A DNA stretch of 64,000 nt from contig JAHBXT010000001.1 in assembly GCA_019636385.1 (NCBI GenBank), positions 310,001-374,000 of the forward strand, read 5' to 3'. The stretch is from Pirellulaceae bacterium. Lineage in GTDB: Bacteria > Planctomycetota > Planctomycetia > Pirellulales > Pirellulaceae. Positions 1,038 through 4,362 of the stretch are shown in pieces. The position numbers and the translations under genes were made by a program. How positions within the stretch are numbered: position 1 is the first letter of the stretch; each line of letters starts with the position of its first letter. The notes below the pieces were generated by a model. That model ran no database searches, was not told the origin of the DNA, and saw nothing but the letters and a program-made list of their open reading frames with translations.

Positions 1038-2981
1038 CTATCGCCCGCCACCGGCACAGGCACAGGCACAGGCACAGCCGGCGCAGGCACAGGCACACCC
1101 CCCACCACCTCCTCGGCGACCGCCTCCGCTACTGGCTGAGTGTTCGGCCAGCGCCTTGAAGACATCGGCGGTAACGCGATCGACGCCACTCAAGTCCACG
1201 ACGCCGCCGCTGGGCACATTCAATCCCATCTTGACGGGTTCGACCGCGGACGCCAATCCCGCCATCGTGTTTTCAGCCCAGCCGGCAAACGATGAAGCAA
1301 CTTCGCCCAGCGAGGTTCGCGACGTGTCGGGAGTGCCCAGGCTGGGCGCTCCTCCGCCGGGGATTCCGCTGCCAGTTGAAGGTATCCCGCCAGCAGGACC
1401 TCTCCATGCTCCTCCATCCATAATGATGATCGGTCCCGTTCGACGGCGCTCCCAAGGTGGCCGGTATCGATAGCCGCGTCTTGCCCAACGCTCGAACACG
1501 TCGATCCAATTGTCGTCCAGCAGAATCCATTCGTGATTCCGATCGAGTACTTCGTCGCGCAATTCGGCTTGCCCCACCGACTCGGCTTCTTTTGATGCGC
1601 GCTCGATGATGGCTCGGTAATAAGCTTGCGTTTCCTGCAAATCGAAGCCGGCCATGCGGCTTGCAACCGACTTAAACAGCCCCCCCATGGCTTCGTTGAG
1701 ATCACACTTTTTCACAGGCCCTTGGTGAGCTTGCAGTTGGTCTAGAAAAGCATGCTCGTAGTCGTGCAACACGATTCCGCGCTGACCCGCCACTTGCAAC
1801 CGTCGCTTACGATCGACGCGAAATGCAACGTCTACATCAACTTGCAATGGATCGTCGCTTGTTTTTTGTAGTACTTCCTTACGTATCAGACCGAACAATA
1901 CGAGTGTCAAGACCTTACCCAAAGGCAGCTCCAGCAGCACAGCCGCTTGAGGGGCCGTCAGACCGCGTTTGATACCGCCGCCCTCAACTGTGGCCATGGC
2001 CGGCAAGTAATCCATCTTCTTGCGGCGCTTCTTCAGTAACCGTTCATTTAGCCAGTAGGCCAAGCCCAAAAACGGCCAAGCAGCGAGATTCAGCGCCGGG
2101 GAGATGGAGGCTGCCAGTCCCAGCATGCCCACCAACATGAAGAACAGCACAAAGCCCGTACCGTGTGAAAATCGAAAAAAAATAATGGCCAACAAAATGG
2201 CCGAGCCAATGAACGATGTCCACTGGGCGCTGGGATGCTCGCGAAACCATTTCATCATCAATCCAAATGGACCGATGGCCACAACACGCTGCATGCCAAT
2301 CTGAGGGAACGATACCGAGCACTTGGGATTCTTCGGGGACAGCTGTATCGAGTCATATTGCCAGACCGCCACCGGATGTTTTTCGTTCCCTTCGCCAAAC
2401 AGTACCAGGTCGGTGTATTTGTAGTTCTCAGCTTGGTATTTGACTTCTTCCGCTTTTACACCGGGTAGCATGTGAATGGCGACTTGCAGGCGTGTTCGTC
2501 CCTGCTGCGAATTGGGGTCAAACCAGGTGGGGATGATCTGCAAGCTGGCATAGCTCTTGTCGGTGCTATCGCGATAGACCATGTTGGGCATCGTGCACTG
2601 GAACTCGAAAACGCCGCTACCACCAGGCGGAATGGCAGAGGCACCCAAGTGCACTTCAACGCCGATGGGAATATATGTCGAGCGGCCTATGCTCTTAAGC
2701 TGCACGCCATCAACGGATGCCAACATATTGCTCAATTTATAGTCGGCATGAGGCAGGCCAATATCCACGACGTCGACGGCGTGTCCACCGCGACTATTTT
2801 CAAACAAGATTTTGTATTTCAGAAGAATTGACGCATCCGGTTGAACGAAGGCCTGCACATCCATCTGCGGGACGGAGAATAGGTAGTTTTGTGCGAGCAC
2901 CTCTGGTGACACACTCGCACTGAACACTGCGACAATAACCAGTGACAGCCTTAGAATTCTCGTTCCTCCAGTTAACCGCAT
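1038..2981 (-). CDS. Exported membrane protein (DUF2207-like) with Cys-Ala repeat C-terminal tail
   Basis: This 647-residue protein is of unknown function. Start choice: ATG at 2981, preceded by GAGGTGG, gives a clean signal peptide (MRLTGGTRILRLSLVIVAVF...AQ); the longer frame to 3041 would run into the upstream gene. After the leader comes a beta-rich extracytoplasmic region (about 30-240), two to three membrane segments (about 255-320, followed by a KKRRKK positive patch), and a cytoplasmic-type region that may include a winged-helix-like part (about 330-560). The organisation resembles DUF2207-type membrane proteins, which often end in glycine-rich tails. Here the last residues are GGGGG followed by alternating Cys-Ala with seven cysteines and a final GGGR. 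It starts 10 bases after the SPASM-type gene, so the two are very likely cotranscribed. The tail could bind metal, form disulfides, or be a substrate for modification; that is inference. Confidence 0.7.
   Translation of the reverse strand: MRLTGGTRILRLSLVIVAVFSASVSPEVLAQNYLFSVPQMDVQAFVQPDASILLKYKILFENSRGGHAVDVVDIGLPHADYKLSNMLASVDGVQLKSIGRSTYIPIGVEVHLGASAIPPGGSGVFEFQCTMPNMVYRDSTDKSYASLQIIPTWFDPNSQQGRTRLQVAIHMLPGVKAEEVKYQAENYKYTDLVLFGEGNEKHPVAVWQYDSIQLSPKNPKCSVSFPQIGMQRVVAIGPFGLMMKWFREHPSAQWTSFIGSAILLAIIFFRFSHGTGFVLFFMLVGMLGLAASISPALNLAAWPFLGLAYWLNERLLKKRRKKMDYLPAMATVEGGGIKRGLTAPQAAVLLELPLGKVLTLVLFGLIRKEVLQKTSDDPLQVDVDVAFRVDRKRRLQVAGQRGIVLHDYEHAFLDQLQAHQGPVKKCDLNEAMGGLFKSVASRMAGFDLQETQAYYRAIIERASKEAESVGQAELRDEVLDRNHEWILLDDNWIDVFERWARRGYRYRPPWERRRTGPIIIMDGGAWRGPAGGIPSTGSGIPGGGAPSLGTPDTSRTSLGEVASSFAGWAENTMAGLASAVEPVKMGLNVPSGGVVDLSGVDRVTADVFKALAEHSASSGGGRRGGGGGCACACAGCACACACAGGGR
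1053..1097. repeat. GGCACA hexanucleotide repeat inside the Cys-Ala tail codons
   Basis: On the plus strand GGCACA occurs four times in tandem (1053-1076), is broken by GCCGGC, then resumes with GCAGGCACAGGCACA. On the coding (minus) strand this is a TGTGCC repeat read as Cys-Ala. It is coding, in frame, and sits just before the stop at 1038-1040. Because the unit is six bases, slippage would add or remove Cys-Ala pairs without breaking the frame. Confidence 0.9.
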
Positions 2982-2991
2982 GACCACCTCG

Positions 2992-4362
2992 TTAATTTTC
3001 AATGGCCCAGCCGGCCGGGTCCGCTGGGCAATGCGCTGCACAGACGGTCATGAACGTACACTTCTGACAATGCTCGTTGCGATCAACCATTTCACGAAAC
3101 CGCTGAAAGCTGGGATGATTCCAGATTTGCTGCCAGGGTTGTAAATGAATCTGCCCCACCGCGACTCTCTCTCCGCGCGGCGGATAAACTTGACCGGCAG
3201 CAGCAACGCGAATGCTGATATCGGCACCTGCGCGTGGTCCTGCACGAAGCAATCGACCGATACGGTCGGCGGTAAGCGGACTGCGGCTGCTGTGTGGCGG
3301 TAGCCAAATGATATTCACCTGGCGACTGTCGGCAACGTCTTCGATCCATCCGGCCAGTTGTCGCATAGCTTGAGCTTGGAAGGCTGTGGGCGGTTGGCTG
3401 CTGTCGGATGAATCGGCAACGACTGCCGTGGCTGGCGATGGCGCCAGTGGCTGGGCGATGGCGAAGACCTCGACATACTCGATTCCTCGCTGGGTGACTC
3501 GGTCTAATTCAACTTCAAAAACGTCTACCGATTCAGGTGTCAAACCGGCCTCGAGTACCGTCGATATTTCCCAACGATCGGCACAGGTTATCACTTCGTT
3601 CAAGCAATCGTAGTCGGCTGGCCCCATGAGTCGCTCGTGCAATTGCCGGCTGACACCCCACGGTACAACGACATAATCCAAACCCACTGCTGACAGTCGA
3701 TCTAATAGTGTCGACTCGATGAGTTGCGTAGGTGCGACTAAGTGCTGGGCGGACAATCGAACGCCGGTAATCATTCCCATATCACCGGCCATTTGCACCG
3801 CTTCGGGCAACCAGCGCTCAAGTCGCTGATGCTCTGGCCGCTGCTGATCATCATTATCCAGCGACGGCACGAAGCGCACATGAGGAATGCCTGCGTCCCA
3901 CAAAGCCTGCAGATAGCGGCGCAGATCAACCACGTTGGACGACTCGACATCGGCTTGAAAAGGAGCGATCAACCCTTGGGGGTACTCCTGAACCATTGGG
4001 TCGGTTAGATTGAAAATCGGATATCGTTTGCTGGGCGATCCCAACTCGGCCAGCATTTTCCGAACGTCATTGACGATGCCTTGTGGATTGGGAGCCCCAG
4101 CTAGCGATTGTAGAATTTGCTGTTGGCTATGTCCCTCGAGCAATCCGTAAGCTACCAGGGTGCCCGAGCGAGTCAAGCGAACCGCCTCAATGGCAGCCAC
4201 TAACAGTAACGACTGTCCGCTGTTTTCGATGCGCAGGTGATATCGCACCAACTCACCGTCGCGCTGGCGGCGATAATGAAACAGGCCAGGACGAAGGGCT
4301 GCGGAGCCCTGTGGTTGCTTGGCAGAGGGCAGTAGCCAAGGCCTTATTTTGCTCCAGTCCAT
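2992..4362 (-). CDS. Radical-SAM-like protein without CxxxCxxC: PqqD-like + TIM barrel + SPASM-type C-terminus
   Basis: This 456-residue protein is read as a degenerate radical SAM/SPASM protein. About residues 25-95 look PqqD-like (VRLTRSGTLVAYGLLEGHS, then a helix). A strand opening FNLTDP (about 117-122) sits where radical SAM enzymes have the NLT strand followed by CxxxCxxC, but the next residues are MVQEYPQG with no cysteine. Alternating strands and helices follow, as in a TIM barrel (for example GIPHVRFVPS, GLDYVVVPWG). The C-terminus has the SPASM-style lead-in (GQIHLQPWQQIWNHPSFQRF) and four cysteines spaced CxxC-x5-C-x3-CP (about 432-445). ATG 4362 (MDWSKIRPW) is preferred over in-frame starts at 4425 and 4455 because the conserved-looking part begins there. 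It heads a two-gene unit with the Cys-Ala-tailed membrane protein. No radical chemistry is expected without the cluster cysteines; a binding or scaffold role is inference. Confidence 0.7.
   Translation of the reverse strand: MDWSKIRPWLLPSAKQPQGSAALRPGLFHYRRQRDGELVRYHLRIENSGQSLLLVAAIEAVRLTRSGTLVAYGLLEGHSQQQILQSLAGAPNPQGIVNDVRKMLAELGSPSKRYPIFNLTDPMVQEYPQGLIAPFQADVESSNVVDLRRYLQALWDAGIPHVRFVPSLDNDDQQRPEHQRLERWLPEAVQMAGDMGMITGVRLSAQHLVAPTQLIESTLLDRLSAVGLDYVVVPWGVSRQLHERLMGPADYDCLNEVITCADRWEISTVLEAGLTPESVDVFEVELDRVTQRGIEYVEVFAIAQPLAPSPATAVVADSSDSSQPPTAFQAQAMRQLAGWIEDVADSRQVNIIWLPPHSSRSPLTADRIGRLLRAGPRAGADISIRVAAAGQVYPPRGERVAVGQIHLQPWQQIWNHPSFQRFREMVDRNEHCQKCTFMTVCAAHCPADPAGWAIEN

Follow-up and report, generated by a model that had tools for sequence, protein, structure and literature searches.

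A radical SAM/SPASM pseudoenzyme and a Cys-Ala-tailed membrane protein as likely parts of a conserved protein-maturation system in a Pirellulaceae bacterium

The window analysed in this work is a stretch of 64,000 nucleotides from a Pirellulaceae bacterium (GenBank assembly GCA_019636385.1, contig JAHBXT010000001.1, positions 310,001 to 374,000), and it carries two adjacent genes on the reverse strand, viz. gene A, encoding a radical S-adenosylmethionine (SAM)/SPASM pseudoenzyme, and gene B, encoding a membrane protein with a Cys-Ala tail. Our analyses indicate that, in a conserved protein-maturation system, the gene A product would be the pseudoenzyme and the gene B product the likely substrate, and that the same genome also encodes, on another contig (C3), an intact radical SAM/SPASM enzyme of gene A's family. 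Judged from sequence motifs and from analogous systems, it is somewhat probable that the intact enzyme modifies the Cys-Ala tail of the gene B product, with the gene A product as a non-catalytic and probably substrate-holding partner. A reading limited to genes A and B is incomplete because the intact enzyme is present in the same genome. The features of the two genes are as follows.

2992..4362, reverse strand: gene A, radical SAM/SPASM pseudoenzyme of 456 amino acids (stop codon included in the coordinates); based on a SPASM match, no Radical_SAM match, structure model, fold matches and homologues
4036..4293, reverse strand: PqqD/RRE-like N-terminal domain of gene A (residues 55–140 in the numbering of the 487-residue open reading frame)
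3421..3966, reverse strand: TIM-barrel part of gene A (residues 164–345; structure model and fold matches)
3931..3942, reverse strand: site of the deleted CX3CX2C loop of gene A (residues 172–175; gap opposite CNNACAHC of P0060)
3022..3219, reverse strand: SPASM domain of gene A (residues 413–478; PF13186 and TIGR04085 over cut-off)
3028..3069, reverse strand: conserved CxxC-x5-C-x3-C of gene A (C463, C466, C472, C476)
2982..2991, reverse strand: ten-base spacer between genes A and B with the ribosome-site-like GAGGTGGT (sequence)
1038..2981, reverse strand: gene B, Cys-Ala-tailed membrane protein of 647 amino acids and likely substrate (stop codon included; homologues, alignment, model)
2304..2879, reverse strand: beta domain of gene B, predicted extracytoplasmic (residues 35–226; model, Foldseek)
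2013..2234, reverse strand: membrane region of gene B, probably three helices (residues 250–323; hydropathy, charges, model helices)
1446..1955, reverse strand: mostly helical domain of gene B, predicted cytoplasmic (residues 343–512; model)
1098..1130, reverse strand: Gly-rich linker preceding the tail (residues 618–628; sequence; predicted local distance difference test score below 50)
1041..1097, reverse strand: tail of gene B, CACACAGCACACACAGGGR (residues 629–647; conservation of the last 17 residues, codon-level selection)

The structure model of the gene A product and its fold matches are of the radical SAM kind, with a partial TIM barrel; these matches include SkfB and SuiB, and the epimerase EpeE stands at rank 32 among those from Foldseek. 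Both SPASM models are matched above their cut-offs (PF13186, 27.6 bits against 21.5; TIGR04085, 30.7 against 27), and no match to PF04055 (Radical_SAM) was obtained at E 10 for gene A or in any of 25 relatives. The initial annotation had proposed a radical SAM/SPASM fold deprived of its catalytic Fe-S cysteines, and both parts of this proposal are borne out: the CX3CX2C loop is deleted in gene A, and the motif is likewise missing from all of the 59 A-type proteins listed (the product of gene A included, and some of them fragments). The possibility that gene A is simply a broken gene was rejected because this absence is common to all of these proteins. The four SPASM cysteines are retained in 59/59 of the listed proteins, and the CxxC-x5-C-x3-C arrangement of gene A does not vary across 25 aligned sequences. 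An upstream SPASM cysteine has been lost in gene A, which has PPRG against LPCQS in the intact P0060, leaving these four. In the N-terminal part of the model, strands (residues 57–94) are followed by helices (residues 96–137), and the alignments with SkfB and SuiB start at residues 70 and 61, respectively; the Pfam PqqD model is matched by one of 25 relatives, and the intact enzyme of L066 lies slightly below its cut-off (E 1.1e-4). When gene A was the sole query, a sequence search of the PDB returned nothing at E 1 and a first scan of genome contigs gave no confirmed relative.

From its N-terminus, the product of gene B comprises a signal-like start and a beta domain, then membrane helices and a K/R-rich stretch, and finally a helical domain, a disordered part and the tail. 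Since the signal-like start and the beta domain are followed by probably three helices and then by the K/R-rich stretch, the protein is predicted to reside in the membrane with its tail on the cytoplasmic side. Foldseek matches of the beta domain are to M1 aminopeptidases and oligosaccharyltransferase chains. A homologue search, for which the search words were drawn from the first 500 residues and hence from outside the tail, found 534 homologues, and among the 120 listed (own protein included) 116 have CACAGCACACACAGGGR as their C-terminal end, with seven cysteines in 94 and six in 22. The Cys-Ala tail that the initial annotation had noticed on the gene ten bases downstream of gene A is in this way a shared character of the family; the four exceptions are P0077 and P0085, which have altered ends, and the tailless P0126 and P0154. 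Gene B and three tailed relatives reached no Pfam or NCBIfam cut-off, and at E 10 gene B matched no NCBIfam model, TIGR04117 and TIGR04222 included. DUF2207 was not matched by gene B (a relative, L030, scored 13.1 bits against a cut-off of 33), and a precomputed Pfam label (PF11992) is carried by one of the 120 listed homologues, P0092.

The tail is under selection as protein. Codon-level comparisons were made in the best 80 of 216 confirmed loci (at least 592 stretches), which were picked by back-translated tail patterns and therefore contain the tail by construction; evidence for the tail that is independent of this choice comes from the homologue search above and from the whole-genome searches described below. 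The 80 loci contain 81 tails, in which the cysteines are arranged around the Gly as 4+3 (38 tails), 3+4 (19), 2+4 (11), 5+3 (7) and 3+3 (5), and one tail begins ACACACAG. Pairwise identity at codon positions 1, 2 and 3 is 0.97, 1.0 and 0.42 among 31 form I tails and 0.97, 1.0 and 0.41 among 45 form II tails, with 5 of the 81 belonging to neither form. As third codon positions are free and the DNA endings of all 81 tails are distinct, an origin of the tail as a DNA-repeat artefact was ruled out. One locus has tandem B-type genes, both with the tail (L010:6128-7867 and L010:7974-9821).

The intact enzyme of the Pirellulaceae genome (5.69 Mb, 8 contigs, 97% complete) is located at L121:7135-8760, immediately following the gene for a zinc-ribbon protein that ends in EEAPKW. 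It scores 108.3 bits for PF04055 and 39.7 bits for PF13186, both over cut-off, and has CNNDCPHC at the CX3CX2C position, i.e. its sequence has the motifs expected of a functional radical SAM/SPASM enzyme. The initial expectation that ordinary radical SAM chemistry should be lost thus holds for gene A but probably not for the system, in which genes A and B are joined by an intact member of gene A's family, so that such chemistry is probably present. A genus-mate (G686) shows the same split, with the pseudoenzyme (as contig-edge pieces) and gene B on C60 and the zinc-ribbon protein and intact enzyme on C237. Outside the Pirellulaceae genome the intact enzyme usually adjoins gene B, and in 44 of 50 tail-II loci it starts at the end of gene B or within 200 bases of it. 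The gene order is intact enzyme, pseudoenzyme, gene B in group I (L004, L008, L012, L014, L023) and gene B, intact enzyme, pseudoenzyme in group II (L041, L045, L066). The SPASM motif is kept in 65 of 66 rows classed as intact, the remaining row being cut by a contig end; intact and pseudoenzyme classes are defined here by CX3CX2C itself, weaker matches (L006, L065, L068, L085) are set aside, and an edge piece in L013, with its motif out of view, is counted as intact. Some intact enzymes (L002, L004, L134) have a C-terminal extension of their own that ends in RRGTGxF plus two residues, and in L002 and L004 this extension contains Cys-Ser-Gly repeats.

The intact enzyme, the A-type pseudoenzymes and gene B go together in genomes. 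In a draw of genomes by class that was not based on gene B (347 genomes), gene B was found in four, and both A-type and intact proteins were found in the same four; two of these belong to one genus and two to one family, and they partly overlap the loci above (G645 is apparently the genome of L016, and G627 that of L031). Family matches at E 1e-30 in this draw, scored on four candidates per genome, were confined to these four genomes and G451, which has a system with a CHSA tail. A second draw not based on gene B, by phylum (392 genomes, some shared with the class draw), detected gene B in G000 and G284 and, weakly, in G072, and its A2 profile matched 59/392 genomes at E 0.001, mostly over the C-terminal SPASM part alone and strongly only in G000 and G284. 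Among the 80 loci, 48 have both the intact enzyme and the pseudoenzyme, 15 the intact enzyme only, 7 the pseudoenzyme only and 10 neither, many contigs ending nearby. The link between genes A and B in the initial annotation is borne out by this survey, in which the two are again found side by side in other genomes, and the tail and the cysteine loss, whose conservation was to be surveyed, are each conserved (116/120 and 59/59).

Whole-genome searches, with matches read by motif, covered 23 genomes (15 tail-I, 6 tail-II, G284 and G072). The tail-I genomes were picked chiefly for their incomplete neighbourhoods; both enzymes were found in 10 of the 15, with two of those pseudoenzymes cut by contig ends, and G393 and G394 have a pseudoenzyme and a partial intact enzyme. 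All six tail-II genomes have the intact enzyme, and one (G408) has a pseudoenzyme as well; G072 has a CHSA-tail system. The 80 loci are distributed over 13 named phyla, viz. Chloroflexota (48), Armatimonadota (10), Planctomycetota (7) and ten others with one or two loci apiece, three loci being unplaced. A metagenome-bin label is missing from two records, those of Bellilinea caldifistulae and Ornatilinea apprima, and the sole Promethearchaeota bin may be mis-binned. Planctomycetaceae and Pirellulales are among the relatives of genes A and B for which a source is named.

Two further genes recur near gene B, one for a class I methyltransferase, present in 48/80 loci, and one for a small zinc-ribbon protein of the membrane, present in 32/80. 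The methyltransferase of the Pirellulaceae genome is located at C1:671522-672268 (E 5.8e-68; next match 1.2e-14), and with it all five parts are present in this genome, at three places. The zinc-ribbon proteins aligned (15, including L121:6773-7138) are small, belong to the membrane and carry the zinc ribbon at their C-terminus, and 15/15 end in PKW; a further one, in L138, ends in PQW. On C3 the intact enzyme is followed by a penicillin-amidase gene (L121:8807-10984) and, farther along, by a HypD gene and an AIR-synthase-like gene (L121:13204-15395). In the window, two long genes on the opposite strand, starting from 4928 and 8773, were recognised by eye as what we take to be rpoB and rpoC.

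In the mechanism we propose, the gene B product would be located in the membrane with its tail on the cytoplasmic side, where the intact enzyme and the gene A product would each bind it close to the tail through an RRE-like domain. These two binding proteins may form a complex in which the Cys-Ala units flanking the fixed Gly are modified by the intact enzyme by means of a 5'-deoxyadenosyl radical that it generates. The gene A product is proposed as a dead partner that would help the intact enzyme to hold the tail because in its model it keeps the fold and the RRE-like domain without the cluster loop, and because there are precedents in TrnC/TrnD (see below) and in the synthesis of freyrasin, where an RRE given in trans partly restored activity (PMC8188230). 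The earlier idea of a non-catalytic homologue handling the tail is in this respect probably right. For the modification itself, a first guess is a hairpin formed by Cys thioether links, which we regard as doubtful. The methyltransferase and the zinc-ribbon protein would then work on the product or together with it, and this product may serve the gene B protein as a metal or redox site.

Several observations weigh against this proposal. Against the NCBIfam sactipeptide maturases the intact enzyme scores far under cut-off and no better than against PqqE/NirJ2. A pseudoenzyme without the intact enzyme was seen in the tail-I genome G403, and neither was seen in G396. Gene B is not in every case beside the enzymes, and the topology of its tail is predicted. 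G284 and the tail-I genome G406 have gene B and the intact enzyme only, and 14 of 50 tail-II loci contain no pseudoenzyme in the locus. Since pseudoenzyme-free versions exist, the gene A product is not an absolute requirement of the system, and A-type partners are therefore an addition to a core of gene B and the intact enzyme.

Other explanations of the tail and its neighbours must also be considered. The tail may remain unmodified and form a metallothionein-like CxC metal site, with the radical SAM family proteins acting elsewhere or loading metal or clusters. CxC repeats are typical of metallothioneins, the commonest tails carry seven cysteines and a zinc-ribbon protein is among the neighbours; however, the strict Ala between the cysteines and the invariant GGGR end exceed what metal binding needs, and the intact enzyme travels with gene B in nearly all of the genomes examined, so that we consider this explanation unlikely. 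It is less likely again that the intact enzyme, still partnered by the gene A product, epimerises alternate residues (to D-Ala or D-Cys) or makes some other radical change instead of thioethers. A two-residue repeat would suit an enzyme acting on each second residue, and EpeE is among the fold matches of gene A, but its rank is low, gene A is not the catalyst and nothing seen points to epimerases in particular.

The initial annotation had also suggested that the gene A product, acting on its own and with no intact enzyme involved, serves to bind or chaperone the tail or to supply metal by way of its SPASM cysteines. The arrangement in the Pirellulaceae genome and in G686, where gene A adjoins gene B and the intact enzyme lies elsewhere, agrees with this, as does the retention of the four cysteines in 21/23 clade-I loci, but most of the examined genomes with an A-type protein also have the intact enzyme. 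Metal delivery in particular is weakened because the four-Cys motif is missing in 2/23 clade-I loci and in all 33 of clade II, and we consider action by gene A alone very unlikely. A role of the tail as a signal for sorting or processing, in which it would be cleaved off or attached to a second molecule, is most improbable: a near-invariant motif at the extreme end behind a variable linker would fit, but known C-terminal sorting signals have a hydrophobic stretch and a basic end, both of which the tail lacks, and no sortase-like gene was noticed among the recurring neighbours, most clusters of which are unannotated.

The pseudoenzymes fall into two clades that differ in the motifs retained. 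GGEP/GGEA is present in 1/23 clade I members and in 33/33 of clade II, which has the SPASM motif in 0/33. Clade-I pseudoenzymes without the four-Cys SPASM motif were observed at L020:6574-8019, L022:6727-8025 and in L101. A quick tree places the clades apart, requiring two changes, and thus suggests that the pseudoenzyme arose twice independently; we do not claim two origins, since in the approximately unbiased test (p 0.579) a single clade was not rejected and the one-clade tree was slightly better. With two origins, the cluster loop and GGEP would have been lost once with the SPASM cysteines kept, and both Cys sets would have been lost once with GGEP kept. As a wider and tentative possibility, which falls short of probable, we suggest a dispersed five-gene system (in Planctomycetota, Chloroflexota, Armatimonadota and others) in which a live/dead radical SAM heterodimer cross-links a Cys-Ala hairpin, the dead subunit having perhaps arisen twice, and in which the product is a metal or redox cofactor that is made ribosomally and anchored in the membrane.

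A naturally occurring pair of a live and a dead radical SAM protein tied to one defined substrate would, if true, be a clean case of a radical enzyme fold kept for a non-catalytic job. The tail, being short, nearly invariant and situated at the extreme end of the protein, would allow a modification to be read directly by mass spectrometry. Confirmation would define a class of modified tails in the 13 named phyla represented among the best 80 of the 216 loci, and would for the first time assign a function to this family of membrane proteins, which is unrecognised by both Pfam and NCBIfam.

The open-licence literature in PubMed Central (PMC) gave no description of a system of gene A, gene B and the intact enzyme, subscription papers and other preprints being outside this scope. 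Systems of this kind are nevertheless already known, as NCBIfam names both a Cys-Xaa-Xaa-Xaa repeat target and a pseudo-SAM/SPASM protein, and Cys-tailed TIGR04222 proteins have been discussed. The radical SAM target TIGR04117 resembles gene B in having a Cys-repeat tail with a radical SAM gene alongside, but its repeat is of four residues instead of two and gene B does not match it. Proteins ending in CHSA repeats stand beside a radical SAM gene in L132 (G451), L133 (G072) and L143 (G395); TIGR04117 is weakly matched by L132 and L085 (the L133 protein), and no pseudoenzyme was seen in the CHSA-tail stretches of these three genomes. TIGR04347 (pseudo-SAM/SPASM) and TIGR04304 (GeoRSP SPASM), compared by name, are designated as SPASM proteins that are not, or do not contain, ordinary radical SAM domains; gene A has no match to TIGR04347 and reaches 11.4 bits for TIGR04304 against a cut-off of 300. 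TIGR04222 proteins, some of which have been proposed as MNIO substrates, are similarly membrane proteins whose C-terminus is disordered, rich in Gly and furnished with Cys, and a modifying enzyme is encoded adjacently (PMC12452194), whereas gene B lacks a match to this family, its enzyme is a radical SAM protein, and its tail is predicted to be cytoplasmic rather than periplasmic as described there (PMC12452194). The sactipeptide synthases SkfB, SuiB and RumMC2 have RRE, radical SAM and SPASM parts, as does the intact enzyme, and RumMC2 formed a Cys-to-Ala link in a variant substrate (PMC8188230); here, in contrast, the substrate would be a membrane protein, the dead homologue is a regular component, and the thioether is a guess. 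The thuricin CD enzymes TrnC and TrnD likewise are paired radical SAM/SPASM homologues that act on Cys-containing peptides as a complex and of which one radical site is dispensable, TrnD with a mutated CxxxCxxC together with TrnC giving full modification with slightly reduced activity (PMC12093266). TrnD is, however, naturally active, whereas the gene A product lost its loop in evolution, and the substrates of TrnC and TrnD are small leader peptides, whereas that proposed here is the end of a membrane protein.

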